A stretch of DNA of 64,000 bases. It comes from Hyaloraphidium curvatum. Its lineage: Eukaryota; Monoblepharomycota; Hyaloraphidiomycetes; Hyaloraphidiales; Hyaloraphidiaceae. Within the stretch, counting starts at the first letter, position 1. Each line of letters starts with the position of its first letter. The stretch spans positions 248,001-312,000 of the forward strand of contig JAIVFI010000007.1 in the NCBI GenBank assembly GCA_025558095.1, in the 5' to 3' direction. The notes beneath the pieces are model-generated. The model searched no databases. It was not told the DNA's origin and saw only the letters and a list, made by a program, of their open reading frames with translations. The position numbers and the translations under genes were made by a program. Below, in pieces: positions 1,856 through 62,406 of this stretch.

Positions 1856-3872
1856 CTAGAGCGGGATGTTGCCTGCCACCCGACCAACATAAGCCACAGG
1901 CCAAGAAGTGCCAACCGTGGTGATGACCCACCGTGCTTTTTCGCCGGGTTGACCAGCTTCTTAGTCCTCAGCATTCTCAGGTCCTCGATGATCCGCCGCC
2001 GCGTCTCACGGGGCTCAATCACGTCGTCGATGTAGCCGCGCTGCGCAGCCGGGAGGGGGTTGGCGAACGTCTTGATGTACTCCTTCTCGGCCTCGGCTGC
2101 AAGAACGCGGATCAGCCAAAATTTGGCGGACGTTCCAGGGCATTGCAACTCACCCCTCTTGGCCGCGTCCAGGTGCCTGAAGATGATCTCAACGGCGCCC
2201 TTGGCGCCCATCACGGCGATTTCGGCCGTCGGCCAGGCGTAGTTCGAGTCGCCGCGGAGGTGCTTGCTGGCCATGACGTCGTACGCGCCGCCGTAGGCCT
2301 TGCGGGTGATGACGGTGATCTTGGGCACCGTGGCCTCGGAGTAGGCGTAGAGGAGCTTGGCGCCGTGGCGGATGATGCCGTTGTGCTCCTGCGCGGTGCC
2401 GGGGAGGAAGCCGGGCACGTCGACAAAGGTGACGATGGGGATGTTGAAGGCGTCGAGGAAGCGGACGAAGCGGGCGGCCTTGACCGACGAGGCGATATCG
2501 AGCACGCCCGAGGAGACCAGGGGCTGGTTGCCGACGATGCCGACGGTGCGGCCCTCCATGCGGCCGAAGCCCATGACTATGTTCTTGGCGTAGTCGGGCT
2601 GAACCTCGAAGAAGTCGCCGTCGTCGACGACGCGCTCGATGACGTGCTTGATGTCGTAGGCCTTGGTGGGGTCCGCGGGGACGATCTCGTCCAGGACGAC
2701 GTCCTCGCGGGTCCTGCCAGCAAGTGAGATCGGAGCTATCAACGAATAGGGACGAAATGAAACTCACGGCGAGTCCTGCGTCAGCCTCGTCGGCGGCTCC
2801 TCCCTGTTGCTCAAGGGCAAGAAGTCGACAAACTGCCTCAGCTTGCTCAGGGCCTCGACGTCGTTGTCAAAGGCCAGGTGGGCGACGCCCGACTTGGTCG
2901 TGTGGGCCTTGGCACCACCGAGCTCCTCCTGCGTCACGGTTTCGTTGGTGACGGCCTTGACAACGTCGGGGCCCGTGACGAAGAGGTACGACGTGTCGCG
3001 GACCATCATGGTGAAGTCGGTCAGGGCGGGGGAGTACACGGCACCGCCGGCACACGGGCCCATGATCATCGAGATCTGAGGGATCACGCCCGACGCGAGC
3101 ACGTTGCGCTGGAAGATGTCGGCGTACCCGCCCAGCGAGTCGACTCCCTCCTGGATACGGGCACCGCCCGAGTCGTTGAGGCCGATCACGGGGGCGCCGA
3201 CGAGCATGGCCTTGTCCATGATCTAGAAGGGGATTCGGGCGGGCAGTGGGCGGCGGAGGCGCACGACAGCGTGGAAAAAAAGCAAGAAGGTGGAGCAGGA
3301 GTCAGGGACGCTCAAGAAAAATGGCCACTCCGGCTGCCGCAACGCACCTTGCAAATCTTCTGGGCGTGGGTCTTGGAGAGCGATCCACCGAAGGCGGTGA
3401 AGTCCTGCGAGAAGACGTAGACGAGACGCCCGTTGATCGTGCCGTAGCCGGTGACGACACCGTCTCCGACGATCTTCCAATAAAATCAGGGCCTGTTTCT
3501 TCGGGCGAGCACGTAGCAGCTTACCTTCTGCTTCTCCATGCCGAAGTCCGCGCACTGGTGGATCACGAACTGGTCGTACTCGCGGAACGAGCCGGGGTCG
3601 AGCAGCAGGTCGATGCGCTCGCGGGCGGTCAGCTTGCCCTTCTCGTGCTGCGCATCGATGCGCTTCTGGCCGCCACCGAGCCGGGCCAGCTGCCTCTGCT
3701 CCTCGATGACCGCGTCGATGTCGTGCTCGGCGGTGTGGCCGACGGCGTAGGTGCGGCGCGAAACCGGCGCGGCCACGGCGCGGGGCGCGAGGGGAACGCG
3801 GGCGGCGGCGCGGGCGAGGCCGGCCAGCGCGGGCACCGCGCGCCGCGACACGGTCGAGAGCACTCCGGGCAT
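1856..3872 (-). CDS. PCCB: Propionyl-CoA carboxylase beta chain, mitochondrial (six exons)
   Basis: Carboxyltransferase subunit that moves CO2 from carboxybiotin to propionyl-CoA, giving methylmalonyl-CoA in the mitochondrial matrix. The ATG at 3872 opens an Arg/Ala-rich presequence ending near RRTYAVGH. The N-terminal carboxyltransferase half has [18 protein letters not shown] and [16 protein letters not shown]; the C-terminal half has [20 protein letters not shown] and [15 protein letters not shown]. Joining exons across donors GTAAGC, GTGCGT, GTGAGT, GTGAGT and GTGGGT keeps the frame. The last intron (1931-1873) leads to a tiny exon encoding the end of KKHGNIPL and the TAG at 1856-1858, matching the usual PCCB tail. 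It is divergent from PCCA, its partner subunit. The methylcrotonyl-CoA carboxylase beta chain is a relative, but the carboxy end and the PCCA neighbour favour PCCB. Confidence 0.95.
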
Positions 3873-4136
3873 GGGCTGCGGGATGCAGAGGGTGGCGGCG
3901 TCGACGTGACGGGGCGCAACCGGGGCGAGTCACACGACAACCAGTGGAATCCGTATCAGCGACCGGGCAGAAAGGCGTCTTAAGCAGCGCCTAACACGCA
4001 CCGCAGTCGCGGCAGACACGAGGAGTGTGAGAGAGACCGGGTTTCGGGACGGCCCGGGAAAGGTTTTCCGCGCTTGCCGGTGACGCCGCAACGCCGTTTG
4101 AATCATCCGGTTGCCGAACCCCGACCTCCACCAGCG
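3873..4136. promoter_or_regulatory. Shared bidirectional promoter region of PCCB and PCCA
   Basis: These 264 bp separate the start codons of the two divergent genes for the two subunits of one enzyme. No clear TATA box is visible. The arrangement suggests coordinated expression; that is inference from position only. Confidence 0.5.
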
Positions 4137-6851
4137 ATGCCGGGTTCATCGCTGCTGCGGTCGGCTGCTGCCGCCGCCCGCGCCGCGCCGCGGCTGCCCC
4201 GCAGTGCCCGGCCGGCGCTGCGTTCCTACGCCACCGCTGAGCCCGTAAAGGACTACGGCAAGGTGGGCGCAGGGAACGCCTCCAGAGCCGGGGAACGGAA
4301 CGCTGATGGACCTATTAGACCTTCGACAAGATTCTTATCGCGAACCGGGGCGAGATTGGTGCGTGCAGAGGCCGGAAGCACCCCTTCGCAGCGGACGCGC
4401 CAACACGCCTGCACCTTCCTTCTGACAGCATGCCGCGTCATCAAGACTGCCCGCAAGATGGGCATCAAGACCGTGGCGGTCTACTCGGACGCGGACGCGA
4501 ACTCGGTGCACGTGCAGATGGCCGACGAGGCCGTCCGCGTCGTGGGTCCCCCTCGGCCACCTGCTGTCGCGTCGGAACCGACCCCCCGCAATTTCAGGGC
4601 CCGCCGCCGACCAGCCAGTCGTACCTCGTGATGGACAACATCCTCGGCGCCATCAAGTCCACCGGCGCCCAGGCCGTGCACCCCGGCTACGGCTTCCTGT
4701 CGGAGAACAGCCACTTTGTCGAGGCGTGCGAGCGCGAGGGCGTGACGTTCATCGGCCCCAACACCAAGGCCATGGCCGACATGGGCGACAAGATCCAGAG
4801 CAAGATCATCGCCAAGAAGGCCAAGGTCAACACCATCCCCGGGTTCGACGGCGTCGTGGAGAACCTGGACCATGCCCTGTCCATCGCGAAGGAGATCGGG
4901 TACCCGGTCATGATCAAGGCGTCGGCCGGCGGTGGTGGTAAGGGTATGCGTATTGCATGGTGGGTTTGAGAAGGTCGCTATCCACGACGTGGGCTTATAC
5001 TGCAGCCATTTAGGAACGAGGCCGATGCCAAGGAGGCCTTCCGCCTGGCCAAGGCCGAGGCGCTCTCCTCCTTCGGCGACGACCGTCTCCTCGTGGAGAA
5101 GTTCATCGTTGAGCCGCGCCACATCGAGATTCAGATCATCGGCGACAAGCACGGCAACACCGTGGGTCCTTTGCCGTTTTGCCGCCCGCCCGAGTTCTGA
5201 CAGCCATCGCCGCCCCCGCCAGTTTTACCTTCCCGAGCGCGAGTGCTCCGTGCAGCGCCGCAACCAGAAGGTGATCGAGGAGGCGCCCAGCATGTTCATC
5301 GACGACGCCACGCGCAAAGCCATGGGCGAGCAAGCGGTGTCGCTGGCTAAGAACGTCGGGTACTACTCCGCGGGCACGGTCGAAATGCTGGTGGACGCCA
5401 ACAGGAACTTCTACTTCCTGGAGATGAACACGCGGCTGCAGGTGTATGTGTCCGCCCGGCAGGAGCACCGGCGGCAACGGCTGACCCTCCCTTTCCAGCG
5501 AGCACCCCATCACCGAGCAGATCACCGGCTTCGACCTCGTCGAGCTCATGATCCGCGTCGCCGCGAACCAGGTCCTCCCCTTCAAGCAGTCCGACGTCGG
5601 CATCAAGGGTTGGGCGCTCGAGTCGCGCGTGTACGCCGAGGACCCCGAACGGTACCTTCCCTCGATCGGCCGGCTCAACAGGTACATCGAGCCCAAGCTG
5701 CAGCCCGGCTTCTCGTCCGAGGCGGTGGTTAGGAACGACTCGGGCATCCGGGAGGGCAGCGAGATCAGCATGTACTACGACCCCATGATCTGCAAGCTCA
5801 TCACGCACGGCAAGGACAGGACCGAGGCGATCGACATCATGAAGCAGGCTCTTGACAGCTACGTGATCAAGGGTGGGTTGCCGGGATCTTTAGCGCTGCG
5901 CTCCCAAAGCCGATGGCTCACGCGATCTGTTTGTTGCAGGCGTCACCCACAACATCCCCCTCCTCCGCGACGTCCTCACGAACCAGCGGTTCGTCTCGGG
6001 CAAATACTCGACCAAGCTCCTTCCCGAAGACTACCCCGAGGGCTTCAAGGGCCTCAAGATGAACGCGGACCACTGGACCGACCTCCTCGCCGTCTCGGCT
6101 CTCGTGCACGCGCGCAGGGACGCCCGCGACAAGACCTGGATCCAGGGTGGCGGCCAGACCGTGATCCCCGAGGCGTGGGAGGTGTTCGTGTCGACCAAGG
6201 GCGAGGAGAAGAAGCTGTCGATCACCAAGAAGGGCGACGCGTACGAGGTCTCGGTCGACGGCGCGGAACCCGTGACGGTGTCGGCGGACTGGGCCGTCGA
6301 GTCCCCCCTGATCAAGGTCAAGCTGACGACGTCCAAGGGCGAGCGGCAGTTCTTTGCGCAGTACCTGGACGCGCTCCCGGTCGGGTTCAGGCTGGGCTAC
6401 CAGGGCTCCAAGGTGGGCTCTCCGCGGGGCTCTGTCTGTCATTAACGCTCAATTCGTCCCTCCCCGTCCAGTTTGACGTGGCCGTCAAGACCCCGCGGCA
6501 AGAGGAGCTGTCCAAGTTCATGAAGGAGCGCGCCAAGATCGACACCTCGAAGGTCGTCCTCTCCCCCATGCCCGGCACCGTGGTCTCGCTCAGCGTCAAG
6601 GAGGGCGACGTGGTGATTGAGGGCGCCGAGATCGCCGTGGTCGAGGCCATGAAGATGCAGAACGTGCTCCGGTCCTCGCGCAGCGGCAAGATCGCAAAGA
6701 TCAACGTCAAGGTCGGGGACTCGGTGGCGGCGGACGAAATTCTCGTCGAGTTTGCGGCGGGTGGGTTGCTTTCTGCTGCTCTGCCTCGAGGGACCTGCTG
6801 ACCATGCGCTCTTCAGGCGACGTCAGCGCCAAGGACTTGCCCAAGAAGTAG
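4137..6851 (+). CDS. PCCA: Propionyl-CoA carboxylase alpha chain, biotin-containing, mitochondrial (ten exons)
   Basis: Biotin carboxylase and biotin carrier subunit that makes carboxybiotin from ATP and bicarbonate for PCCB. The ATG at 4137 starts an Arg/Ala presequence ending near RSYATAEP. Then come the biotin carboxylase N domain ([18 protein letters not shown]), the ATP-grasp glycine loop [15 protein letters not shown], the active-site segment [19 protein letters not shown], the PCC-type BT region, and the biotinyl domain with the lysine in VEAMKMQNV near 6650. Nine introns can be placed. Their donors are GTGGGC, GTGCGT, GTGGGT, GTGGGT, GTGGGT, GTATGT, GTGGGT, GTGGGC and GTGGGT, and each join restores family sequence. 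The last exon encodes [10 protein letters not shown] and TAG at 6849-6851. Methylcrotonyl- or pyruvate carboxylase were considered, but the length, BT region and neighbour fit PCCA. Confidence 0.95.
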
Positions 6852-7112: not shown

Positions 7113-7699
7113 TCAGCCGAACCCGGGCAAAGACTGAACGTATCGATCCACGCTCATCCTGAACAGATCGTTCGAAATCGTGTCCATCGATCGCGCCAAC
7201 GGGTTCTTGGCGACGTACTCGACATACATCTGCGAGTAGATTGTCCGCAGGGCCTGCGCGAGGCCGTCGAGGTTGGGATCCGTGCACATGACGAACTTGA
7301 GACCTGTCGCGGTCTCAAAATAGTGCAGCTTATAGGCATTCTGCAGACGGCGCAAATGATGAAGCGGCAGAACATGCCAGTCGGGCAAGAACCCACTGTT
7401 CGATAGGCAAGGAAGCTCCCGAGCTCCGACGAACCCTTGAGCTTGTTCACCATGTTCCTCAGCGAGTAGATGACACCGTACACGAGCTTCGCCTCCTCGT
7501 CCAGGCTCATGTTTCCGGGCCGCGTCTGCCGAGACCCTCCGATGCTCCCCGGCATCGACGCTGTCCGCGGGGGAATCCCCGGCTGCGATCCCGGCACGGA
7601 ACCTTTCCCCGGCGGCACAGCGGCCGGTGCCCGGTTCCAGCTGGTATAGTACACGCACTTGCAGTGCCGATCAAAGACATAGAGGTTGTAGATGGTCAT
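7113..7699 (-). CDS. BET5: TRAPP complex subunit BET5/TRAPPC1 (two exons)
   Basis: Small core subunit of the TRAPP tethering complexes, which activate the Rab Ypt1/Rab1 in ER-Golgi traffic. The ATG at 7699 gives MTIYNLYVFDRHCKCVYY, the characteristic longin-fold start of this family. A Pro/Gly/Ser-rich loop of about 40 residues follows before the conserved EEAKLVYGVIYSLRNMVNKL. A 56-bp intron (7396-7341, donor GTGGGT) joins FLAYRT to NAYKLHYFETATGLKFVMCT. The protein ends MDTISNDLFRMSVDRYV and QSLPGFG with TGA at 7113-7115. The loop is longer than in yeast or human. It is divergent from EFR3, with 345 bp between start codons. Confidence 0.93.
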
Positions 7700-19700: not shown

Positions 19701-20422
19701 CGAGCACCCCTTCGGGGACCGGTACGAGAGGGAGGCCAACATCCTCAGGGGGAACTTCCGGCTGGATAGGCTGCAGGGCATGGGGGAGGAGGGCGTGGAG
19801 GCGATGGACCTGATCTCGGCCATGATCGCGCGGGACGCAAAGGCGAGGTGGGCTTGGTGGTGGCATTGCTCGAGCTCATGGACTGAAACGGGGAGCAGGC
19901 CCTCAGCCAAGGACGTCCTCATCCACCCGTACTTCTGGACCCCCGCGCAGCGGCTGTCGTTCCTGCAGGACGCCTCGGACCGCTTCGAGGTCGAGGTGCG
20001 GGATCCGCCGAGCGCCATCCTGCAGCGGCTCGAGGCCGGCGCGCCCGAGGTCGTGGGCGCGGACTGGCACAAGCGGCTCGATAAGTCGGTGATCGACAAC
20101 CTGGGGAAGCACCGCAAGTATGACGGGGCGCTGATCAGGGACCTGCTGCGTGCACTGCGGAACAAGGTGGGTTTTGCGGGGACATTGAAAGTCATGACAT
20201 TGCGGGCTGACGCTTTTGGCGCTCCAGAAACACCACTACCAGGACCTTCCCGAGAACGTCAAGCGGCACCTGGGTTCCGTTCCCGAGGGCTTCCTTTCCT
20301 ATTTCACCAACCGCTTCCCGCACCTCCTCCTGCACGTGTACCGCGTCGTGGCCGAGGACGAGGGGCTGCGGAACGAGAACATCTTCAAGCCGTACTTCGA
20401 GGTCGGGGACAGGTTCAAATAG
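16776..20422 (+). CDS. IRE1: IRE1 unfolded-protein sensor kinase/endoribonuclease (five exons)
   Basis: ER transmembrane sensor that oligomerises on unfolded proteins and splices a bZIP mRNA through its RNase domain. A signal peptide (ACALLALLGVLALLAGAAG) precedes a luminal beta-propeller-like region (LIVATLDGRLHGIDARGGKK, VGRTEYHLSIISPP). A highly acidic insert (DDDIWGWDDEDDV) lies in the luminal part. The membrane segment is near 18410-18490 (LGWWWWAASTVLLAAAAGAA). A disordered linker precedes the kinase: LGYGSHGTVVYRG loop, ECAVKRLL lysine, HRDIKPQN catalytic loop split by an intron, SDFGLGKKL, APEC. The KEN RNase domain (KHRKYDGALIRDLLRALRNK, FPHLLLHVYRVVAEDEG) ends at TAG 20420-20422. 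Donors are GTATGA, GTACGT, GTGGGC and GTGGGT. ERO1 and a DCR2-like phosphatase lie downstream. Confidence 0.95.
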
Positions 20423-22742: not shown

Positions 22743-24603
22743 TCATCGATACTTCATTTCATCCTCGAGGAACCCGACCGTGGGGAAGCGCTTCGCAAAC
22801 GCAACAACTTCGGCCTTCGTCTTGCCAATCTCCGGCACACCGGCGCCCTCGCCGAGGAAGTCCTTGAAGTCCTTGAGCTTCGTGCCTGTAACTCCAGTCA
22901 ATGAGGGCTAAGCGCAGCAAACGTCCGAGCCCACCCTTGGCCTGCCCGTTGACCTCGATCGCGATCCGGACGGCCCGATCGATGTACTCGCAGATCTGAT
23001 CGAAATCGGATTCCACCAGGCCACGCGTGGTCATTGCCGGCGATCCGACGCGGAGACCGCCAGGGACCAGCGCGGATTTGTCGCCAGGGACGGTGTTCTT
23101 GTTGGCGGCGACGTTGACGAGCTCGAGGACGCGCTCGACACGGGACCCGTCAATCTTCTTGTCCCGCAAGTCGATCAGCGCAAGGTGCGTGTCGGTGCCG
23201 TCGGTAGTGAGCTTGTAACCCATCTTCTTGAGGACCACCTCAAACCGCTTGGCGTTCTTGAGGACCTGCTTCTGGTACTCCTTGAAGTCGGCGGACTGGG
23301 CCTGCTTGAGAGCGACGGCAAGGGCGGTAATCGTGTGGTTGTGCGGGCCACCTTGGTGACCGGGGAAGACGGAGGCGTTGATGGGCCCTTCGAGGTCGTA
23401 CATAATCTCTGTCGCCGTTCGTTAGCGAACCAAAATCAACCCAAACCGTCATAGTTTAGCCCACCCTTGCCCTTCTTGTCCACGGACTTGACACCCTTCC
23501 GGTAAAAAATCATGCTGCCCCGCGGTCCGCGCAAGCTCTTGTGCGTCGTCGTGGTGACGACGTCCGCGTACTCGAACGGGCTCGGCAACACTCCGGCGGC
23601 CACCAGCCCGCTCACGTGGGCCATATCCACGAGCAGCACCGCGTTCACGCCATCCGCAATCTGGCGGAACCGAGCATAGTCCCAGTTGCGGGGGTACGCC
23701 GACCCGCCGGCGACAATCAGCTTTGGCCGGAAGAGTTTCGACGTGGCCGCGAGCGCATCGTAGTCAACGAGGCCCGTAGACTCGTTGCAACGGTACGGCA
23801 TCTGCTCATAGTATGCCGAAATCGCGGAAATTTTCTTGGTGTCGGTCTGGTAACCGTGTGACAGGCTGGCGAGGGAACACGTGAATCAATACCCGACAAG
23901 CGAGACTCGGGGCCACTCAAGGCCCCAAAGGCGAGAGCAGAGATACCGACTGTCCTCCGTGAGGCAGATCAAGGCCCATGAGGCGGCCATGAGGTCCGAT
24001 GAGGGCGTAGTAGACATAAAGATTTGCCGGAGCCCCTGGCCGCGGCGAGTCAGCTTCCAGAGAGACAGATAGTGCCACCGAAGGCCGCACCCGACAGCGA
24101 CTGGACGTTGACGCCCCACTTGGCGGGGTCCAGCCCAAACGCTTCCAAAGCGCGCTGCTGGCAGAGCCGCTCGCTCATGTCAATGAACTCGTTTCCGCCA
24201 TAGTAGCGCGCCCCGGGGTAGCCTTCCGAGTACTTGTTCTGCATCGGAGAGCCAAGAGCCTCCATGACCGCCCGAGAGGTGAAGTTCTGCGCGGGTCGGG
24301 GTGAGGGTCCCGGAACCCCGTTCACGTGGCGCCCGAACCTCGGACGGAATGAGCACTATACTCTCCCGCTGCCGCTGCTTCTCCAACTCCAGAATGTTCT
24401 GAATCTCGGGGTCCACCCTTGCCAGGGGCGCATTGAGCAGCTGGCCGAATGGAACACGGTCACAGGGTACCGGCCTGAGCGACGATCAGACGGACCTCCA
24501 CGGAGGGCGAGGCGGTCGCCATGCCGCGCTGAGGCACTCTCGGCGCCCGCAGGCGCGTCGGCACGGCGGACCGGAGTCCGCGCGGGAGCATTGCGCCGGA
24601 CAT
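22743..24603 (-). CDS. SHM1: Serine hydroxymethyltransferase, mitochondrial form (multi-exon)
   Basis: Pyridoxal-phosphate enzyme interconverting serine and glycine with tetrahydrofolate. The N-terminal exon from the ATG at 24603 encodes an Arg-rich presequence ([20 protein letters not shown]) ending ATASPSVE. A short intron (donor GTCCGT) joins it to [20 protein letters not shown], a mitochondrial-type start. Then come [30 protein letters not shown], the PLP-lysine loop [20 protein letters not shown] near 23520-23580, [20 protein letters not shown] and [15 protein letters not shown]. It ends with FLEDEMKYR and TGA at 22743-22745. Introns lie near 24310-24355, 24010-24070, 23830-23900, 23400-23460 and 22870-22930. 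Whether a second, cytosolic SHMT exists cannot be seen here. Confidence 0.95.
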
Positions 24604-29060: not shown

Positions 29061-30791
29061 ATGACCCACTGCCATTCGGAGCCACGCGCGGCCTGGCGCC
29101 GCTCGCCATGGCCGGCAGTGCTCCTGATCCTCTTTGCCTCCGTCGCCGCGGTCGTCGCGCAGCCGCTACAGGCGGGAATGGCTAACGCCGTGCTGCACCC
29201 CGACGAAGGGGACGTTTGCAAAGTGGGTCCGCGCCGCCCATCGGGCCCGTTCCGGCCAGCTGACGGCGCTGGATCCCCTCCGTCCAGCTCTCCGGCCCGA
29301 TCCAGGACTCGTGCTGTTCGTTCGAGGACGTCCAGGCCGTCAACGAGGCCGTGAACCTGCCCCTGAACGAGCTCGTGCGCACGCTCTTCTTCCGTTTCTG
29401 GAAGGTCAATCTGTGGAAGGACTGCCCTTTCTGGAAGGACGGCCTGTTTTGCACCAACCGGAACTGCGCCGTGGAGCCGGCCGACGAGTCCGAGGTGCCC
29501 GATGAATGGAAATCAGGGCCCCTCGGCTCCATCAACCTCGAAGGATCGAGCACCGAGTACTCCTCGGTCTTTGGCGGCTGCTCGATAACGGACAAGGATT
29601 TCTGCATCCTGGATTCCGAGAACGCCCTCAGCGACGGCACGTGCTACGTGGACCTTTTGAAGAACCCCGAACGTTTCACTGGCTACTCTGGCGAGCCCGC
29701 CAACCGCGTCTGGCGTGCCATCTACGAGGAGAACTGCTTCAACCTCATCGGAGACGGCACCACGCCGCTCGAGACGGAGCTGGATCGGGCGCGCGCCGTC
29801 GAGGCCGCCTGCGTGGAAAAGCGGGTCTTCTACCGCCTCGTCTCGGGCCTGCACTCGTCCATCTCGGTGCACATCTGCACCGACTGGCTCAATCGCACCA
29901 CGGGCGAGTGGCACCCCAACTTGGACTGCTTCGTGCACCGCGTGGGCAAGTTCCCGGAGCGGGTCAACAACGTCTATTTCAACTACGCCGTCGTCCTCCG
30001 TGCACTGCGTAAGCTGGCGCCGTACCTGCGCGAGTACGCATTCTGCTCCAGCAACACGACTGAGGACGCTTTGACGAGGGAGCTGCTGGAGCGGGTGCTG
30101 GATGCCCCCGCTGGGTGCCCGGCGGCATTCGACGAGAAGCAGCTGTTTGCCGGGCAGGATTCGAAGCAGCTGATGCGCGAGATCAAGGGCGCGTTCCGGA
30201 ACATCTCGCGGATCATGGACTGCGTGTCCTGCGACAAGTGCAAGATGTGGGGCAAGCTGCAGGTGACAGGGCTCGGGACCGCGCTCAAGATCCTGTTTTC
30301 GCTGGACGATAAGTGGGTTTGTCCGATCTTCTGCCGTGAGCCGCTTTTCTTACGTCGTTCGCAGCTACCGAAACTACCGCCTGAGCCGCACCGAGATCGT
30401 CACCCTCGTCAACGCGTTCCAGCGGTACTCCAACACCCTGAAATCCATCACGAGGTTCAAGGCCATGTGGGAGGCGAGGTCCCAGGCGACGGAGCGGGCC
30501 CCGGTGCCGCGGCCAGCCGAGCGGGCGGACGCGGAGCGGCCCCCGGCAAACGCTTCCCCACCAAAAGCCGAACCCGATTCCGGGCCGGCGCCGCAACCGG
30601 TGGCGCCTCCTTTGACCGAGGGCGCGCGCCGCTTCTTCTTCTCCCCCGGGGGCGTCCTCGTGGTCCTGGCGGCCGCGGCGCTGGCCGTCATCGTGTTCAT
30701 GGTGCTCGGCGGCTACGTGGATCCGGACCCTCGCAGCCGGACCAAGGCTGGGCAGGTGGTGGCAAAGAAAAAGGCGAAGAAGGTGGCGTGA
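29061..30791 (+). CDS. ERO1: ERO1 endoplasmic reticulum thiol oxidase with C-terminal membrane anchor (three exons)
   Basis: FAD enzyme that re-oxidises protein disulfide isomerase in the ER lumen. From the ATG at 29061 there is a signal peptide (WPAVLLILFASVAAVVAQPL). A GTGGGT intron after GDVCK leads to LSGPIQDSCCSFEDVQAVNE. The shuttle pair is CTNRNC (C-x4-C) inside KVNLWKDCPFWKDGLFCTNR. FAD and core motifs are NPERFTGYSGEPANRVWRAI, YEENCFNL, CVEKRVFYRLVSGLHSSISV and GAFRNISRIMDCVSCDKCKM, whose C-x2-C-x2-C is the active site. A second GTGGGT intron joins SLDDN to YRNYRLSRTEIVTLVNAFQR. A membrane segment (VLVVLAAAALAVIVFMVLGG) follows, as in yeast Ero1. The human regulatory Cys104 equivalent is replaced (CAVEPADESEV). 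It ends at TGA 30789-30791; that 3' end is part of a direct repeat. Confidence 0.95.
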
Positions 30792-35765: not shown

Positions 35766-36681
35766 TCACCAATCCCTGACGCCCTTCTGCGGCGGCGCGC
35801 CGGCCGGCGGCATCGCCGTCTTTGGCATCCTCCTCTTGCCCACGCCGCCAAAATCCCCTCCGGTCGAGAGCAGGAACCGCGCATTGTCCGCGCCCACCCT
35901 TGCCCTGAACCCCGCGTTCCTCCTGTCCGCCTCCTCGAGCTCCCCGGCATCGAGCACGTGGTGCGACTCCCAGTCCTCCACGCGGATGGTGATGGGCGAG
36001 TCGAGCCGCGGGTCCTGCTCCGGTGCGAGGGGGAGGACGAGGTGCAGCGTGGGCGCGGGCTGGGGGAGCGAGGGCGAGGCGGCGGTCGAGTCCGAGTCGG
36101 AGCCGTCTGCGGCGTCCAGGGAGAGCGGGTCGGACTCCAGCTCGGCGAGGCGGGCGAGCAGGTCTGGGTGGTGGGTGTTTGTGTTTGGGCCAGCCTCGAA
36201 GCCTGCGAAGGGGAAGGTGAGCAGAGATCTTGTTCGGGGAGCGGGAGTGCCCACCCTGCACCCAGCCGACGGGCGGGCTGCCCGGCGGCGACAGCAGGAA
36301 ATTCTTCTCGGCGTGCGGCACCTGCAGGAACCTGTCCGGGTCGTCGTCGTCGCGCGGCAGCCCGTCCGCGGCGAACACCTTTGCCTGCGCCAGGCCGGGC
36401 AGCGCGGCCACCCGCGCGGGCAGCTCCCTGCGCGCCCGCGCGGCGTCGGCCGGCTTGGCGAACGCGACGATGACGCGGCCGAAGGAGCGCAGCGGCACGA
36501 CCCGCCGCAGCTCGCCGTACGTCGCCGCGAGCCCCGCGACCGCCCCCGCCGCGCCCGCGTCGAACGCCGCCCGCCCGATGCCCGCCGCGACCAGCGTGTC
36601 CGTCATCGCGGACACGAACGGGCTGCTCGGCGTCGGCGGCGCACTGTCCGCCGGCGGGGACGGGCCGGGGTGCGCGGGCAT
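35766..36681 (-). CDS. RCN1: Calcipressin (regulator of calcineurin) (two exons)
   Basis: Binds and modulates the calcineurin phosphatase. The ATG at 36681 gives a Pro/Ser-rich lead, then an RRM-like half: TYGELRRVVPLRSFGRVIVA, FAKPADAARARRELPA. The calcipressin signature follows: FLQVPHAEKNFLLSPPGSPP, VGWVQG. An intron (donor GTGGGC, 36239 down to about 36207) joins it to GFEAGPNTNTHHPDLLARLA, LESDPLSLDAADGSDSDST. The C-terminal part has ITIRVEDWESHHVLDAGELE and ends KGVRDW with TGA 35766-35768. The SPPGSPPVGW block (the FLISPPxSPP repeat with phosphorylatable Ser in calcipressins) is the decisive motif. Confidence 0.9.
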
Positions 36682-37529: not shown

Positions 37530-38673
37530 CTAAGCAAACACCTTGACGCCGGCATCCGGGAACAGAGCGCTCAGGATGATCAAGAAGAGGAGCTTAATCT
37601 TGCAGCTGTTGCCCGCCAGCGCGACCGAGATCCCCTTTTCCGGCCACTTGAGCGCGTAGGTTTCCCAGCCCAGCGCCTCGCCTTCGTGGCCCAGGAAGGA
37701 GCCCTCAGAATGGATCCCGAGACCGTAATTCATCCCCGGCATGATTTCCTTGAGCTCCAGGCGCTTTGCCGCGAGGTCTGGGGGCAGCGTCGTGTTTCCG
37801 CACAGCGAGTCGGCCCACGTCAGCAGGTCGCAGATGTTCCCCGTCATGGAGCCGCCGCCCTGGCCGTACGACGCATTCCAGCCCGTGACATCCGTGCCGA
37901 GTGCAACGGTGCCACCGGCTTCGGCAAATTCGGCCTGGGCGTTCTCGTTGATCACGGAATGTGCGGCGGGCTCGGGGAGGGCCGTGTTGTTGTTCGGCGG
38001 AAGGTACGTGCCTTTCATCCCCATGGGGACGCAGAAGCGCGCCTGCAGCTGCGAGTCGAGCGTTGAGCCCGTGAGTTTTTCGATCATGAGCTGCAGAATG
38101 AGGTAGTTGGTGGTCGAGTAGCTGGTGCGCGGTGCGAGGGTCAGCGACCGCGCGGAGGGAACCCCGCGGAACCCACCCCGTGGTGCCTGCCGGCTTCACT
38201 CCCTGAGCAAGACCTATGGCGATCAGCTCCTCGCAGGTCCACGCCTTGGACGGGTTGGCCACCACCTGGGGCACGGCCCCAGTAGGCGAGTTCATAAAGT
38301 CCGGCAGCCCCGAGCTCATGCCGAGCAGGCTCTGTACGTCGAGGCCGGCCATGGCCGGGAACTTGGCGGAGAGCTCGGGGAGCACCTCGGACACCTTGGT
38401 GGCGAGCGCGAGCTTGCCGTCGGCCACGAGCTGCAGCGCCGTGGCGGCCGTGAAGGTTTTCGTCACAGAGCCGATGCGGAGCGAGTCGGCGGCCGTCGCG
38501 GGGCGGCCCGGGGCGGCTTCGCCGTAGCTCTTGACGAATGTGCCCTTGGCGGGGTCGCGCACGGCGACGTAGAACGCCGGGCTCATCTTGGTCACGTCGC
38601 CCTTGTAGGTCTCAAGGACCGTGGCGTCAATGGCCGCGGCGTCTGCGTCGGACATGGGGCGGGCGGCGGACAT
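37530..38673 (-). CDS. Beta-lactamase-like serine hydrolase (class C / D-Ala-D-Ala carboxypeptidase fold) (two exons)
   Basis: The ATG at 38673 (MSAARPMSDADAAAIDATVL) has no signal peptide. The nucleophile motif is S-x-x-K in SLRIGSVTKTFTAATALQLV. The second motif Y-x-N is created by splicing: a GTGGGT intron joins AGTTG to YSTTNYLILQLMIEKLTG. The third motif appears as the histidine in FLGHEGEALGWETYAL (H-x-G type). Family-typical stretches are PELSAKFPAMAGLDVQSLLG, MSSGLPDFMNSPTGAVP and GGSMTGNICDLLTWADSLCG. It ends DAGVKVFA with TAG 37530-37532. Fungal members of this fold are mostly esterases or peptidases acting on unknown substrates; antibiotic resistance should not be inferred. The C-terminal tail is hydrophobic (KIKLLFLIILSALFPD), perhaps a membrane anchor. 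Confidence 0.85.
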
Positions 38674-41600: not shown

Positions 41601-42119
41601 ATGCCCACGCACTACGACGCCCTCGGCGTGCCACCGACCGCGTCCGCCGAGGAGATCCGGCGCGCGTACCAGCGGCTGGCCTTGCAGGTGGGCGTCACGG
41701 CCCCCCGCCGAGGTGCAGGCGGGTTGACGGGCGGGCAGCACCATCCGGACAAGGTAGCCCCGCAGGGGGGCACCGCCGGGCCTGAAAGGGGGGACGACGG
41801 GAAGGAGGGCACCGGGCAGCCGAGCGGGGACGCGTTCCTGCGCGTGCAGGCGGCCTGGGAAACCCTGCGGCAGCCCGCCGCCCGCCGCGCGTACGACGCG
41901 TCCCTCCTCCGGCTCGCCTCCGCGGGCGCGATCGACGCCGAGGTCGACCTGGACGACATGGAGTTCCGCGAGTCGCCCGAGGGGGGCGTGTACGTGCACG
42001 CGTGCCGGTGCGGGGGGGAGTACGCCGTGTCGGAGGGGCAGCTGGAGCGCGGGGCGGACGCGGTGGGGTGCGGGACGTGTTCGCTGAGGATCAGGGTGCT
42101 GTACCGCGCCGTGGATTGA
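41601..42119 (+). CDS. DPH4: Diphthamide biosynthesis protein 4 (J-domain and CSL zinc finger)
   Basis: Electron-transfer co-factor for the first step of diphthamide synthesis on elongation factor 2. From the ATG at 41601 the J-domain reads MPTHYDALGVPPTASAEEIR, RAYQRLALQ. A 51-bp in-frame intron (donor GTGGGC) joins to HHPDKVAP, giving the essential HPD motif. After a Gly/Gln-rich loop: FLRVQAAWETLRQPAARRAY. The C-terminal DPH-type zinc finger has HACRCGGEYAVSEGQLERGA and GCGTCSLRIRVLY (C-x-C ... C-x2-C). The combination of J-domain plus this finger defines DPH4/DNAJC24. The intron was inferred because the translated stretch between would break the helix before HPD. Confidence 0.92.
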   Translation: MPTHYDALGVPPTASAEEIRRAYQRLALQVGVTAPRRGAGGLTGGQHHPDKVAPQGGTAGPERGDDGKEGTGQPSGDAFLRVQAAWETLRQPAARRAYDASLLRLASAGAIDAEVDLDDMEFRESPEGGVYVHACRCGGEYAVSEGQLERGADAVGCGTCSLRIRVLYRAVD

Positions 42120-42144
42120 CGCTACATGGCAGGCGGGTGCGGGA

Positions 42145-46642: not shown

Positions 46643-48475
46643 CTAGAGATAAAGCCCCTCGGGAGTGCCCTGGAAGCAAAGACAGTTCAGCAAATGAAGA
46701 TCCACGGGCCGAAAAAGGCCAATCCAGGTGCGCGCGCCCGGAACGGCCACCACAAGATCCTCACCTCGGTCTTCCTGTACAGGACCTTCTCCTTGGCCTT
46801 GCGGAAATCCTCCGCCACCACGCGCATCCGCCGCTCCCGCAGCGCGAGCAGCCCCGCCTCGGTGCACACGGCCTTGATGTCGGCCCCCGAGAGGTCGTCC
46901 TTGCTCATCACGAACTCCTCCAGGTCCACGTCGTCGGCCAGCGTCATGCGCGAGGTGTGGATGGCAAAGATGCGCCGCTTGGTCTTGACGTCGGGGAGGG
47001 GGAACTCGATCTTGCGGTCGATCCGGCCGGGCCGGATGAGCGCGGGGTCGAGCGTCTCGATGCGGTTAGTCGCCATGATGACCTGTCGCCAAAACGCTCG
47101 TCAGAAAATGCGTTCACCGAAGCCAGGTGGAACGCACCTTGACGTCGCCGCGGGAGTCGAAACCATCGAGCTGGTTCAGCAGCTCCAGCATGGTCCGCTG
47201 GATCTCGCGCTCGCCGCCGCTCGTCGAATCGTACCGCTTGGTCCCGATGGCGTCGATCTCGTCGATGAAGACGATGGAGGGCGCCATCTCGTCGGCAACG
47301 CGGAAGAGCTCGCGCACGAGCTTGGGGCCGTCGCCGAGGTACTTCTGGATCAGCTCGGAGCCGACGACGCGGAGGAAGGTGGCCGAAGTCTGGTTGGCGA
47401 CGGCCTTGGCGAGGAGGGTTTTGCCTGCACACCCCGTCAGCGGGAAACAAGAGCGAAAATGGGGTCCGAACGCACCGGTGCCGGGAGGTCCGTAGAGGAT
47501 GACGCCCTTGGGCGGCTTGATCCCCATCTCCTCGTACAGCTCGGGGTGCGTGAGAGGGAGCTCCACCGACTCCTTGATCTCCTGGACCTGCTGGTCGAGG
47601 CCTCCGACGTCCGCGTACGACTCGGTCGGCGCCTTTTCCAGCTTCATGACGCTGACCATGGGGTCGGTGTCGTCCTGGAGGACTCCGACGACGGCGTGCG
47701 ACTATTCAAGCGGCGCACAACGATTAGCCAATGAATTCCAGTGAGCCCTTTGCCTCGAGCAACACACCTTGTGGTGCATGAGGATCGAGCAGCCCGGCTC
47801 GAGGATATCCTTGTCGACAAACGACATGATGCTGACGTAGTACTCGGGCCCGGTCGAGGCCGACACGATTGCGTGGTCGTCGTCGATGATCTCCTCCAGC
47901 GAGCCCACGTTCATCGGCGAACCGCGCAGGTCGTCCACCCGGGACCGCTCCTCCTGCGCCTTCTCCTCCTGCGGCTTCAGTCGCTCCTGGTTCTGCACGA
48001 ACTCCTCCTCCAGAAGCAGGAAATCCTTGATCCGCTCCATCTTCAGCATCCGCAGCTTGCACCGCGCGGTGGGGAAGACTGGCGCGCGCCGCTCAGACCG
48101 CGTCCCCGGCGGCAACCCGCGCCGTGCTCACTCTGGGGTATCCTGGTCGCGCTGTCCGGCCCGCGCTTCTTCTTCTTGCCGACCCGCGTGGGCAGCGGCG
48201 GCTCCCACTTCTTCTTGGGCTCCTTCTCCTTCTGCGGGCCGGCGCGTGAGCACCCGCCCCTCCGCGCCGCGGCGACGCGTCACGTGCCTTCTCCTTGTCC
48301 TTCGGCGCGCCATCGCCCGGGCCCGGCGGGCCGCCGGGCCGCATGCCCGACTGCTCCTGGCCCTGAGGAACGGGGCGCGTCAGCGGGTCCGGAGATCTGC
48401 GGCGTCCGCACAGCGGCGGCGGGAGAATCGCGCCGCCGGCGGCATGAAATCGCCTCCGTGTGCGAGGCTCACCAT
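46643..48475 (-). CDS. RPT2: 26S proteasome regulatory ATPase RPT2 (multi-exon)
   Basis: AAA ATPase of the 19S base; RPT2 opens the 20S gate and is N-myristoylated. The ATG at 48475 stands alone on exon 1 (ATG|GTGAGC), joined to GGCCAGGAGC to give MGQEQSG, the conserved myristoylation start. A GC-AG intron follows (GAGAAG|GCACGT), joining KDKEK to [20 protein letters not shown]. Next: [40 protein letters not shown] (OB), [20 protein letters not shown], Walker A GPPGTGKT (its second Gly codon split by an intron), Walker [15 protein letters not shown], and [20 protein letters not shown]. It ends [15 protein letters not shown] with TAG 46643-46645; LYL is the HbYX-type gate-opening tail. Confidence 0.96.
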
Positions 48476-52373: not shown

Positions 52374-54606
52374 TCAGCTCTTCAGTTCGCCCATGATATT
52401 CTTGAGCACGCGCAGTTCCTCCCGCACCGCGTAGCCGCGGTCGTCGATCTTTGCGGCGACCTTTCCGTGTGCCGCCTTGTACGCGTCGAGCAGGTTCTTG
52501 AAATAGGTGGAGTAGCTCCTCTTGAGCTCGCTCTTCATGCTCTCCACGAGATCGGTCCGTAGCTGGACGCCGTGCGCATTGATACGCTCCCCGTACTGCC
52601 ATTTGAGGGAGCGCCAGCGGCCTTTCATCCACAAGAACGCGCTGACGGCCAGAGCGCCGCCGGTCCCGTAAGCAACCGGCGGAGGAACGCCGAGATGAAT
52701 AGCAAAGAGTGTTCCGAGGCCGACCGCAGCCTGCGAGGAGAGCGTAAACAAGGCTTGCTGACAGCAATCCAGCAGCCATCATACCTGGAAGCCGACCGTC
52801 GTGAGGACCGTCGAGTCGCCGGCCGACTGCAGACGCTCCCCCTCCAGCCGGACCTTTTCTTCGTACCCGGCCATTGGCGAAGAAAGCGTCCGAATGGGGT
52901 TCATCCCTTTGGCGAACTCCAGCTCGCGATCCAGCTGCTCCACGATCCTCGCGATCTCCACTTCCAGTTCCCGAGACAAGCTATGCCGGTACAAGACCTT
53001 CGAGTGAGCCACGCGGGCGAGAATGTTGCGCAGGTTCGTGGCGTAGGTCGACATGACGCCGTCCGTCCGCCCAACCGCGTGGGAAAACAATATCTCCACC
53101 TCGCGCAGGGTCTGCGCGCCTTCCCAGGTGAAGCCGGAAGCCGAGCCCTCGACATTATTGAGGTGCACCAGACTAGAGCCCATGAGCCTTCGCGTCGCCT
53201 CGAGGCTAATGGGCTCCATCCTCCAAAGGAAGCGCCACAGCGGCCGTTCGGCCACGTAGCTCGTCGCCTTCTCCTCCGACTGGAGCAGCACCCGAGCTAT
53301 CTCGCTGCCCGTCTTTTTCATGGCGGCGTCGAGCTGCCGCTGCTCCTCTTTCCGAACGGCATCGACCACGGCCGTGACCTCGTGGTGGTAGCTCTGGATC
53401 GACTTGTAGGTGACGTCGATCTCCCGTTCGAGACGCTCCAGCGCATAGCGTCCGACGGCCAGATCGGTCAGAAGCTTGGCAGACCGGTGATCCGCCGGGC
53501 TTAGCAGGCGGCCGAGAAGATAGTCCCGCACGACGTCGATCCTCGCCGACGCCAACCGGCTCTGGTAGCTGTACGGGCTAACGGGTACGCCTTCCTCGAC
53601 CGCGCTGCGAAGCCCGATGGGCGCCACTATCGCGCGCTTGGCCGCGGTCCAGAATATGGGCGCTTTCAGGCCGGGCGCGTGGATCTTTGCCCGCTGGTCC
53701 ACCTCCTTCGCCATGCGCGCAACAGCAATCTCCTCTGTCTCCCCCAGCCGGTCCGTTTGGTTGACGCAGACCACCACGCGGTCCGCGCGTCCCATTTTGT
53801 TCAGCTTTTCCAGCGTCGAGATCTCCCGCGCCCCCGTGAGTTGCCGTGCAATGTCCGACACCAGCACGACGGCGTCCGACTCCAAGAGAGCGGTGTCCAG
53901 GATTATCTTGTTGGGCACGCTGTCGAAGTTGTAAAGACCCGGCTGGAAAGCGGAGTCAGGGAGGAGGCAACCGCAGCGACAGGGGAGAACCCACGAGGTA
54001 CAAAACGTCGGCGTGGCAATACTCGAGCCACTTCGTTGGGGCCCTGATCCGGGAGAAACCAGAGGACGGGTCCGGCTCCAGCTGCTCCGCCTTCTCTCCG
54101 TACCTGTATGCGACCTTCAGCATCACCGTCGCTGTCACGAAAGAACGAAGGACCCACGAAATGACGGCAGGCTCCTCCAGCTCCTTCAGGACCCTCGCGA
54201 GGAACGCCGAGGCCTCGGCGTCCACCGTATCGTCATCCAGCAAGCTCCGTATGAGCACCGTCTTGCCCACGTAGTCCTCCCCGATAAAGGCCACGCGCAG
54301 CTTGGCCCCAGACTCCCCAAGCGCCACCCGCCCCGCAGCCCGCCGCATCGCGTCCTTCCAGGCCGGATTCCGCTCCTCCAGCTGGTCCTGGAGCTCCACA
54401 ATACGGGACATCACGTTCTGGATCCTTGGAAGGTACGTTTCCGCCGCCGAGGAGGCATAGGCACGAGCACGCCCCGAGTGGAAGAGGGGGCGCCAAGCAG
54501 CTCCGGGAGCCGCGAGCGGCTGCAAAATTCCGGCATTCCGCTGCCAGTGTTGTCCGCGTCCACGAATAAGGGCCAGAAGCCGCGATGGCCTCGCGGGCGG
54601 GGGCAT
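52374..54606 (-). CDS. MMC1: Mmc1-like divergent dynamin relative, mitochondrial (three exons)
   Basis: From the ATG at 54606 an Arg/Ala-rich presequence (MPPPARPSRLLALIRGRGQH) leads to a helical region and a degenerate dynamin-type GTPase domain. The P-loop is kept (AFIGEDYVGKTVLIRSLL). After a GTGGGT intron the G3 region reads DVLYLPGLYNFDSVPNKIIL, with Tyr in place of Asp in the DxPG motif. The G4 position reads VVVCVNQTDRLGE, not T/NKxD. A long helical stalk follows (HHEVTAVVDAVRKEEQRQLD, GRTDGVMSTYATNLRNILAR), an intron (GTATGA), two hydrophobic segments (VGLGTLFAIHLGVPPPVAYG, ALAVSAFLWM) and a final helix ending NIMGELKS, TGA 52374. Fungal Mmc1 is such a GTPase-dead inner-membrane protein; naming it Mmc1 is from memory and moderate. 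Mitofusin is the alternative but fits less well. Confidence 0.6.
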
Positions 54607-54736
54607 CGTGCGAGAGAAGGAAACGCACGGGCCCAGTCATCAAACGCCCGGGGTCCAAGAATCACGTGCGGATCGCCGTAGTCCCATTTTCAAGTCAGAA
54701 ATAGACATCCAAGACTAAATAGTGTAGATTTACTGT

Positions 54737-58348: not shown

Positions 58349-58488
58349 ACTGATTTGGCGGGGTAGCGTGTGGAGGCGGCGATTCGTGATCGCTGGCTCG
58401 CGGCCGGAATCAAAGTAGCCGCAAGCCGAAGACCACCCACCCACTTCGACCCACCCGTCGCGTCCGCAGTTGCGCCCCGCCGGCCACG

Positions 58489-60928
58489 ATGCAGGCGGGC
58501 GGCGCCGACTGCGGGCCGGTCAACCCGCTGGCGGGGCTCGTCAAGCAGTTTGCCGACGCCGACCGGTCGCTGCAGCGCGACCGCTTCGATGCCGCGGCGC
58601 CGCCGCCGGGCGCGATGCGCCAGCGGCCCATCGACGCGCGCACCGCGCGGGACCTGGAGGTGCGCTAACCGCCGTTGGTACCATTTCCCGGGGAGATCTA
58701 ACCGCCTTGACTTGGTTCATCTAACCTCCTTCATGGGGGAACAGCTCGCCGACGAGTTCTTCCGGCAGGCGCACGCCGGCGCCGGCCCCGCCGGGCTGCG
58801 GCCGTTCGAGATGCGCGACGTCGGCCGCGAGCTCGAGCGCGTGGCGGCGGCCGGCCCCGCCGACTGGGCCGCCGAGTTCCACCGCGCCGCGCACCGCCCG
58901 CCGCCCGCGGACTTCGCCGACCTCGAGGCCGCCTTCGCGCGCCACGCCCCGCCGCAGCTGCAGCAGTGGGCGGACGACTTTGCCCGCTTCGACGCGCAGC
59001 ACCGCGGCCCGCGCATCACGGAGCTGGTGACGCCCGAGCAGGAGGCAGAGTTTGAGGCCGCCTTCGCCCGCGCCGAGGCCGCCGCCGGCCCGCAGAAGAG
59101 CTGGGAGCAGGAGTTCGTCGCGCACGAGGCCGAGTCGTGGGTCGAGGAGTTTGCCGCGCAGGAGGAGCGGCTGGCGCAGGCGCCGAGCGCAGAGTCGGAC
59201 GAGACCCGCGCGGCGCTGGCCCGCACCGCCGGCCTGCTCATCTCGGCGGTGCAGGACTCGGCCAACCCAAAGTTCAAGCAGAGCAAGTTCATGCAGTTCA
59301 TGAAGCAGCTGCGCGACGGCGAGGTGGCCATCGAGGGCAACAAGGTCGTCGAGGCAGGCGGCTGGGAGGCTGAGTTTGCCCGCAAGGAGGGCGGCGAGGC
59401 GTGGGCGGACGAGTTTGCCGGCAATGCCGGGCCGGCCGGCTGGGCCGAGGAGTTCGGCCCCAAGGAGGCCGCGGGGCCCCTGGGCGGGACCGCGGGGGAC
59501 TGGGCCGCCGAGTTCGGCTCGGCCGAGGGTCCGCGCGGCTGGGCGGACGAGTTTGCGATGCAGGCCGAGCACGGGCCCGTCGGCGCCGCGGGCGACTGGG
59601 CCGCCGAGTTCGACGCGCGGGAGAAGCCGATGGACGCGCACGACTGGGCAGAGGAGTTCCGGAAGCAGGGCATGCCGCAGACGGCCGAGGAGATGGAAAA
59701 GTGGATCTCGGACTTTTCGCAGGAGGAGGACGAGGAGTCCCGCATCAAGGAGTACATGGAGATGCACGAGGAGCAGGCCAAGATGGACGACTGGGTCGCG
59801 CAGTTCCGCAAGTCGCTCAAGGAGGCCGCCGGCGACGCAGAGGCCGAGGGCGAGTGGGGCGACATGCAGGACGAGTGGGAAAAGTTCCAGGCCACCAGCC
59901 TGGGCTTCCGCGCCACGGACCAGCGCTACAGCAAGTACGAGTTCCAGCCCAACAACCCGTACCTGGAAACCGCGGACACGGCCTTCCTCCGCGACACCTC
60001 GCGGCACCGCTCCCTCGCCGAGTCCATCCTCGCGCTCGAGGCCGCGGTGCAGCGGGATCCGGACGACGCGCAGTCGTGGCTCATGCTCGGCATGCGGCAG
60101 CAGGAGAACGAGCGCGAGCCCGCGGCCATCGCCGCGCTGCGCCGCAACGTGATGATCGAACCCGACAGCCTGCCCGGGTACATCGCCCTCGCCGTGTCGT
60201 ACATCAACGAGGGCTTCCGGGACGACGCCTACGAGGCGCTCGAGGGGTGGATCCGGCACAACCCGCGCTACGCGCACCTCGTGCAGGGCCGCCCCGCGCC
60301 GCCGGGCGGGCCGAAGCAGCAGGACGTGGTCTCGCTCTTCCTCGCCGCGGCGCGGTCCAATCCCGGCACGGACCTGGACGCGGACGTGCAGCAGGCCCTG
60401 GGGATCCTGTTCAACGCGAGCGAGGAGTACGACAAGGCTGTGGACTGCTTCGAGGCCGCGCTGGCCCGCCGCCCGGGGGACTACATGCTGTACAACAAGC
60501 TCGGTGCGACGCTGGCCAACGCCAAGCAGAGCGAGCGCGCGATCGAGGCGTACTCGGCCGCGCTGGACATCAACCCGGACTACATTCGCGCGAGGTGCGT
60601 TGCTGATCGCCACACTGGGTTTGCCGAAGCTGACGTCCCACACCCCATCATTAGGTACAACCTCGCCATCTCCTGCATCAACCTCGGCAACCACCATGAG
60701 GCGGCCGAGCACCTCCTACACGCCCTGGCCATGCAGCAGGCCGGCGCGCCCGCCGCCGTCAAGGGCAAGGGCCGGCCGGGCGCCTTCCCCGGCGGCGGCC
60801 CGTCGCCCATGTCGGACTCGATCTGGGATACGCTGAGGATGGCGATGCTGATGATGTCGCGGCCGGACATGGTCGGGGCGGTGGACGCAAAGGACATCAA
60901 CGCGTTCCGAGGGGAGTTTGACTTCTAG
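58489..60928 (+). CDS. PEX5: Peroxisomal import receptor PEX5 with thirteen W-x3-F motifs (three exons)
   Basis: Receptor for PTS1 cargo, shuttling between cytosol and peroxisome. From the ATG at 58489: MQAGGADCGPVNPLAGLVKQ. The early cysteine in DCGPVNPL is where PEX5 is mono-ubiquitinated for export. An intron (donor GTGCGC) follows RTARDLE. The N-terminal half has thirteen W-x3-F/Y PEX14/PEX13-binding motifs, such as WAAEF, WADDF, WEQEF, WVEEF, WEAEF, WADEF, WAEEF, WISDF and WVAQF. The PTS1-binding TPR half starts near YSKYEFQPNNPYLETADTAF and includes LALEAAVQRDPDDAQSWLML, NVMIEPDSLPGYIALAVSYI, FEAALARRPGDYMLYNKLGA. A second intron (GTGCGT) joins DYIRAR to YNLAISCINLGNHHEAAEHL. TAG 60926-60928. 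Human PEX5 has seven or eight such motifs. Confidence 0.95.
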
Positions 60929-61108
60929 GTCGGCTTGTAGATATCTCAGGGTGAAAAGAATGGACTGTGTCTCTCTCGAGCTCGGAAATAGGGTATCTTT
61001 TGAATCCAACCGCGCGACAGAGCCATCGCAAACACGCGGCCACTACACAGCCCACTGTTGCGTTCCACCACAACCTTGCCCCAAGATGTCCCACACACAG
61101 AGACTCCA

Positions 61109-62406
61109 TCAGCCTGAAGACGGACAGTCAGAAGCAGAAGAGAGAAGAGGCGCGCACAACGCTTACAGAACTTCCAGCGGTTCCCGCCTGCAGGGCGCGA
61201 GGCTCAAGTCAGATCCAGCCAACGTCCATGCCGAATTGGCCACTCACAGTTGAGGCACGTCACGAAGGTGGTCATCGGCTCGTCCGCCGACCGCGTCTGC
61301 ATCTGGTAGTACTTTGTTCTCCGTTGCTTGCACTTGCCGCACTTGAACATGTCCGTCTCGGCAGAGTTGTCAGCGTGGATCTGGGCGTCCAGGAGGTTCT
61401 GCTTCTGGATCTTCTCCCATTCCTTCTTCAGGTCGTCCGAAGCCATGTCCTGAATTCAATCGGTCGGTCGCTTAAGCTTCTGCGGCTTTGGCGGCGCCGG
61501 ATCTCGGCCTACCGCGGTCGTCATCTTGCAAAAGTCGGCGACCGGCAGCTTCCCCGTCACGACATTCTCCCGCAGCCCCGGGTTGTCCTTGGCCTTCAGG
61601 TTGAACACCAACGATCGCACGCGGTCCTTGTACTTCTTGTTGTCCGGATCCTTGTTCCCGTACTCTTCCCACGTCTGCTGCTCGACCGAGGTCGCCACCT
61701 TGCCCACCAGCTCGGGGTTCACCCAGGTAACGTAGGAGAGCGCGGTGTATATCATTTCGGAGCACTTGTCCCTCGAAGTATGGCCGGTCCGCGGCAGGGA
61801 CACCCCGTCCTCAGCAGGCGTACGTCCCTCTCGCCGTTCCGTGAGCGGCGTCTCGGCGCTCTTGAGGCCGCCGCCGGACGACTGCGACCCCAGCTCGCTC
61901 TCGACCTTTGTCTCGACTGATTCAGCCGCCACTGAGCAATCTCTGCGGCACCGGCACGTCTCCACCCACTCTTGAGCTTCCCGTTCTCGACCTTCTCGTC
62001 CTTGACTTTTGCCTCCTTCTCCTCCTTCGGCTTCTTCTCATCCTTGGACCCAACGTCGTCCTTCCATTTCCGCACAATGTCCTTGCACCGCTCCGATATG
62101 GCCTCGTCCACGTCCGGGTTCTTCCGGAGCTTGTTCACAAAGGCCCCGATTTCCGTTTTCTGCGGCCCGGGGAGGCATTCGTGAACCGCGACGCGCTCTC
62201 CGACCGCTGATCCGGACCTTGAGCAGATCGGCCGTGGCCTTGACCTCGGCCAGCCTGTCCAGGCAATCCTTGACAAGCTACAGAAGGCACGTCCCGTCAG
62301 GCCGCGTGCGTCGGCCAGCCTCGGATCCTCCCACGTTCAGCTCCCCCGGGATGGCTTTCTCGATGTCCCGCTTGATCTGCTCGATGTCCTCCGGCGACAA
62401 TGCCAT
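61109..62406 (-). CDS. DST1: Transcription elongation factor TFIIS (six or seven exons)
   Basis: Stimulates RNA cleavage by paused RNA polymerase II. The ATG at 62406 gives ALSPEDIEQIKRDIEKAIPG. Introns (GTGGGA, GTCCGG) join to LVKDCLDRLAEVKATADLLK and KTEIGAFVNKLRKNPDVDEA, the LW domain I. Domain II: RDKCSEMIYTALSYVTWVNP, KKYKDRVRSLVFNLKAKDNP. Domain III zinc ribbon: MFKCGKCKQRRTKYYQMQTR, then SADEPMTTFVTCLNC, with the catalytic Asp-Glu in the RSADEP loop. A GTGAGT intron and then a GTAAGC intron leave a last exon of five coding bases: T|GC TGA, giving NRWKFC and stop at 61109-61111. The ending WKFC is the family's normal end, which confirms the tiny exon. Confidence 0.93.

Follow-up and report, generated by a model that had tools for sequence, protein, structure and literature searches.

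Which donor do the introns of Hyaloraphidium curvatum carry, and what sets its fourth position? The textbook donor is GTAAGT or GTGAGT. An earlier note on the window, the 64,000-nucleotide stretch of contig 7 analysed here (bases 248001-312000; the assembly comprises 31.9 Mb in 55 contigs), had placed splice joins with frequent GTGGGT or GTGGGC donors (GTGGGY), putting G at position +4, and had proposed either base composition or a shift in U1/U6 recognition as the cause. The window has a GC content of about 61-72%, the genome of about 64%, and the genes named in that note include IRE1, ERO1, BET5, an SNG1-like and a Mmc1-like gene, a content which, together with spliceosomal introns of about 57 nt, is as expected of a fungus. 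We confirm that in predicted introns the commonest donor is GTGGGT, not GTAAGT/GTGAGT.

Donors of individual genes

All introns reported here are predictions, some of them backed by homology. They come from a semi-Markov gene finder trained on sequence alone, with an initial donor model consisting of GT only; GT and AG ends are imposed by the model. Homology was brought in with a motif-free spliced protein-to-DNA aligner, which knows only GT and AG, using as queries human PCCA, PCCB and RPT2 and the closest serine hydroxymethyltransferase of the Protein Data Bank.

In the gene model of PCCA (forward strand), seven of nine donors are GTGGGY, exactly as had been claimed. Introns 3 (4542..4597), 4 (4960..5013), 5 (5162..5222; score loss 124 if barred) and 7 (5873..5939), all GTGGGT, are found by both gene model and alignment, as are intron 2 (GTGCGT, 4359..4428) and intron 6 (GTATGT, 5444..5498). 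The other three rest on the gene model: intron 1 (GTGGGC, 4263..4318) precedes the stretch over which the human homologue aligns, intron 9 (GTGGGT, 6761..6816) lies downstream, past the aligned region, and intron 8 (GTGGGC, 6413..6471) falls in a weakly conserved region where the alignment favours another join by 10 units.

The gene models likewise bear out at least one GTGGGY donor in each of PCCB, BET5, IRE1, ERO1, ferredoxin, the calcipressin-like gene, the serine hydrolase, DPH4, the bromodomain gene and CMD. The last intron of PCCB (GTGGGT, 1873..1931) and two introns of serine hydroxymethyltransferase (both GTGGGC, 22886..22934 and 23409..23464), all on the reverse strand, are placed identically by the motif-free alignment. 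The gene model gives the introns of BET5 (GTGGGT, 7341..7396), the calcipressin-like gene (GTGGGC, 36203..36254) and the serine hydrolase (GTGGGT, 38122..38176) on the reverse strand, and those of IRE1 (GTGGGT, 20167..20227), ERO1 (introns 1 and 2, both GTGGGT, 29223..29287 and 30313..30364) and DPH4 (GTGGGC, 41688..41738) on the forward strand. In contrast to PCCA, none of the six introns of the RPT2 gene (46643..48475, reverse strand; gene model and motif-free alignment) has a GTGGGY donor. Within a donor population that is mixed, PCCA stands at one extreme.

Among 100 predicted introns of the window, 31 donors are GTGGGY and 7 are GTRAGT; at +4, G occurs 55 times, A 25, C 17 and T 3. At least one GTGGGY donor is present in 20 of 31 predicted genes, with no clustering by gene of either donor types (p=0.32) or GTGGG (p=0.78).

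The donor logo beyond the window

The logo was built on 324 kb from 8 contigs, about 1% of the genome (C7:228001-412000 and 20 kb from each of seven further contigs), together with a few targeted genes. At convergence, C7:228001-412000 yields 290 introns with G 47%, A 26%, C 22% and T 5% at +4, G 66% at +3, G 88% at +5 and T 48% at +6. Across the 8-contig sample (426-436 introns), +4 is G in 44-47%, A in 24-26%, C in 22-25% and T in 5-7%; the run with 426 introns gives 46%, 24%, 25% and 5%, and with +4 left unmodelled the 95% confidence interval for G is 39.5-49.0%. In this predicted-intron logo G, at 44-46%, is the main base at +4.

GTGGGT is the top donor hexamer, with about 19% (18.7%) of donors against 0.5% of GT hexamers when both strands are counted, a 37-fold enrichment; of the GTGGGT hexamers on either strand, 54% are donors. 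With GTGGGC it makes up 131 of 492 donors (27%) in the genome sample. The donor is thus often used, as the earlier note had it, but its wording overweights PCCA. A literature search for GTGGGT donors found no paper describing this hexamer as the consensus of a genome.

Several observations lie beside this. We looked for introner-like families and found 16 intron pairs with E<0.01 versus 9 after shuffling, with no family apparent. A second histone H3 gene (L037, G000:C10:157700-158700) has the donors CAG|GTGCTT and CAG|GTACTT, without G at +5, which represent the exon-strong donor class at its extreme. An RPL7a-like gene (L043, about 455-733, G000:C10), mis-split by the gene finder, has an unusually long intron of roughly 280 nt (median of all introns, 57 nt) that might host a small nucleolar RNA.

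Base composition and preference at position +4

Base composition alone, the first explanation offered, would leave A favoured at +4, as is usual, and let a GC-rich genome drag the position to G. The G:A ratio at +4 (1.8-1.9) is indeed near that of intron bodies (2.0), and A:G at +4 tracks the third-position A:G of the host gene: A/(A+G) falls from 0.48 to 0.36 and 0.27 over terciles of GC3 (gene permutation p<0.001), and extrapolation to a GC3 of 0.5 brings A to about 0.67 of A+G. Against it, neither intron GC nor flanking GC adds an effect on +4 once GC3 is included; the simple correlation with intron GC is weak.

A further point is the use of available sites. With +4 unmodelled, GTGxGT sites serve as donors in 91 of 170 cases for G (54%), 36 of 75 for A (48%), 34 of 166 for C (20%) and 4 of 56 for T (7%), without a significant difference between G and A (p=0.49). 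For each GTGAGT site available there are 2.3 GTGGGT sites. G outnumbers A at +4 by supply, and its intrinsic acceptability equals that of A, contrary to an intact A preference. Nor does composition override donor positions generally: at +6, T still beats C per site, 0.36 to 0.10.

In Schizosaccharomyces pombe, +4 is A in 2539 introns, T in 1846, C in 514 and G in 157 (PMC8163875), that is, 50% A and 3% G, with A:G at 16:1 and G the rarest base. Transferred to the background found here, with the GC content of S. pombe set at about 36%, these preferences predict about 7% G; the 44% observed indicates that something beyond composition has been altered. Since G equals A per site here, against 16:1 in S. 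pombe, the effective preference at +4 in the predicted introns has changed, without a change of snRNA bases. The earlier interpretation is thus partly supported: of the two causes first proposed, composition matters, through the supply of GTGGGT and the GC3 trend, but is insufficient by itself, and we consider composition alone an unlikely explanation.

Over terciles of codon adaptation, GTGGGT rises from 14% to 27% of donors, along with G at +3 and T at +6. Together with the lack of an added effect of intron or flanking GC, this may mean that GTGGGT is actively favoured, by selection for G over A and not by neutrality. Highly expressed genes do not point to a simple optimal donor: they are mixed, and those of histones are mainly GTGCGY.

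The METTL16 homologue and SNRNP27K

The preference for A over G at +4 in S. pombe and humans is attributed to the m6A43 of U6 that faces this position. Reduced or altered m6A43 could thus leave A no longer favoured, if the METTL16 homologue lacked the KA-1-like domain and some of its RNA-binding residues. The sole METTL16-family gene that we found (L005:1495-2346, G000:C33) encodes a complete methyltransferase domain, with the catalytic NPPF kept, and nothing else: the stop follows directly after the domain, and with the following gene of that strand starting about 115 bases further on, there is no room for a C-terminal KA-1-like domain. In an alignment to human METTL16, R200 is deleted, R204 is replaced by A in a shortened loop and R279 by Q, arginines which we take to bind RNA. 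M167 is replaced by P; it is, with K163, an RNA-binding residue of the human enzyme (PMC10978996). The protein is as similar to psilocybin synthase of mushrooms as to human METTL16.

Against this, KA-1 is naturally absent from some METTL16 orthologues (PMC10581693), an upstream exon could carry an N-terminal module, and a second gene may have been missed. The direction of the change also disagrees: loss of METTL16 in yeasts, and in mutants, brings a gain of U at +4 (PMC10581693, PMC9803359), and U is the most avoided base here. As the shift is to U and not to G in mutants and in lineages that have lost the gene, the odd homologue would be a lead to the cause of the +4 state, not a result, and we regard altered m6A43 as distinctly unlikely to account for it. 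SNRNP27K is intact, with RQYMN and the conserved C-terminal Met (SNRNP27 domain, E 1.2e-29).

Robustness of the joins

The first joins were placed by hand, by a reader without tools, and PCCA, the leading example, is extreme; the logo could then be an artefact of their placement. Five starting motifs, GTAAGT and GTATGT among them, lead to the same logo. In C7:228001-412000, G at +4 amounts to 46% with +4 taken out of the model and to 46% with only GT modelled; the 8-contig run with only GT modelled gives 43%, and models blind to all of +3 to +6 leave the logo unchanged. The motif-free alignment places 22 introns, 21 of them as in the gene models, which argues that the joins do not stem from a motif preference; at these 21 joins, +4 is G in 8, A in 5, C in 6 and T in 2. 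An artefact of hand placement is highly improbable.

Intron class and spliceosomal RNAs

The introns are ordinary major U2-type GT-AG introns; the GT and AG ends are imposed by the model, but the alignments restore protein families. Their median length is 57 nt, the branch point is CTGAC, mostly 15-17 nt before AG, and the acceptor is CAG; in the learned logos, +5 is G in 90% and acceptor position -3 is C in 86%. A minor U12-type class was considered and rejected: the RTATCC donor and the distal TTCCTTAAC-like branch point are absent from the learned donor and branch logos.

U1 is canonical (AUACUUACCU), with two identical genes that start 5' with AUACUUACCUU; U6 is canonical too, with ACAGAGA in two identical genes. 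A search for variant copies with the U1 body returned the two canonical genes only. A compensatory base change in U1 or U6 to match GTGGGT, the shift that the earlier note had in mind, thus finds no supporting point and two canonical genes of each RNA against it, which excludes it in the sequences compared and leaves its probability next to negligible.

The genome further contains two U2 genes, with similar search scores, and one LUC7 gene. U1, U2 and U6 are each present in two nearby copies (among them the pairs at G000:C2:67851-68014 and 73103-73266, and at G000:C3:501742-501985 and 517247-517490), identical within the U1 pair and within the U6 pair, which suggests a recent duplication or gene conversion for each. 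The U6 genes (L003:1501-1611 and L004; G000:C42:52802-52912 and 54474-54584) stand in opposite orientation. Over the 700 bases 3' of their ACAGAGA core, T never occurs four or more times in a row, and an ordinary Pol III terminator is therefore not seen; an intron or another mechanism of 3' end formation is possible.

U1 pairing and a model for position +4

For CAG|GTGxGT, the predicted U1 duplex energy is -9.9 kcal/mol with A at +4, -9.1 with G, -5.5 with C and -5.4 with U. That G pairs worse than A, as had been pointed out, is true, but the loss is small, while C or U costs more than 4 kcal/mol. Exon ends follow the same division. Among donors with G at +5, with donor positions unmodelled, -1 G and exon AG reach 77% and 36% when +4 is C, 61% and 22% when it is G, and 52% and 17% when it is A. 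The stronger exon ends at +4 C, and the likeness of G to A, indicate that G counts as paired, and C as mismatched and in need of compensation.

Position +3 prefers G over A three-fold per site (0.22 vs 0.07), and in the branch point CTGAC, G stands at 62% and A at 8%. From the frequencies at +3, +4 and the branch point, three positions that face U or pseudouridine of an snRNA therefore favour or accept G.

We propose that ordinary introns are read by canonical U1 and U6, with a changed weighting of bases at +4: the purines are nearly equal, and a GC-rich supply favours GTGGGT. We hold this reading to be probable. G would be accepted about as well as A, C would pass chiefly where the exon end is strong, and U would be avoided. 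The ranking G≈A>C>T would track pairing to U5 of U1 (probably a pseudouridine), with which A pairs and G wobbles, C and U being mismatches. A preference for A over G of the U6 m6A43 type would be weak or absent in this lineage; with A and G nearly interchangeable and about 64% GC, G would be supplied more often, making GTGGGT the commonest donor. In this lineage, we infer, +4 is read chiefly by U1, with less discrimination from U6.

Pairing with U1 does not account for everything: it treats C and T alike, yet C is used at three times the rate of T. U is avoided more strongly than U1 pairing would demand, in keeping with a report that U6 m6A is incompatible with U at +4 (PMC10581693). That +4 is chosen mainly by U1 pairing and not by U6 m6A43, in a third, G-dominant purine state beside the known A and U states, and that the cause lies in a protein, for instance a METTL16 lacking its U6-specificity domain, and not in an snRNA base change, is possible, if on balance doubtful.

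Comparison with known systems

No position of the donor varies more than +4, for which links to U6 m6A and to two splicing factors are known. The switches published go from A to U; G as the main base differs from them, and we see the GTGGGT preference as ordinary donor evolution in a new form. Whether +4 is set by U1 or by U6 finds a natural test in a genome such as this, where G leads at that position, the snRNAs are normal and the METTL16 homologue is odd. On the practical side, a gene finder built on GTRAGT will overlook introns here or put them in the wrong place.

In Saccharomycotina, nearly every change at +4 exchanges A and U, and there is little movement from W to S (PMC10581693). The METTL16-linked switch described there resembles our case in that variation is centred on +4 and the pairing sequences of U1 and U6 are invariant; it differs in running between A and U after loss of METTL16 or SNRNP27K, while here the shift is to G, U is avoided and both families are present. 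Compared with the METTL16-positive class with A at +4 (PMC10581693), H. curvatum has the NPPF methyltransferase, in a homologue without the KA-1-like domain, and the Met of SNRNP27K, and shows no A preference (A 24%, G 44%, equal per site). It also departs from the +4 U class of METTL16-less yeasts, as U makes up 5-7% and is used at 7% of GTGTGT sites.

S. pombe shares a METTL16-type gene, many introns and frequent purines at +4, with A at 50% and G at 3% (PMC8163875) against 24% and 44% here. The GTGCGTG donors of Ostreococcus lucimarinus (PMC2483917) are similar in lacking A at +4, in G at +3 and in the CTGAC branch point, but have C at +4 and are very uniform; here donors are mixed, G is commonest and introns are numerous. 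Yarrowia lipolytica, with GTGAGT donors (PMC2483917), also has G over A at +3 but, unlike H. curvatum, retains A at +4. Finally, the division into exon-strong and intron-strong donors recurs here, since donors with C at +4 have stronger exon ends and those with a purine do not; the difference is that in this lineage G joins A in the intron-strong class.
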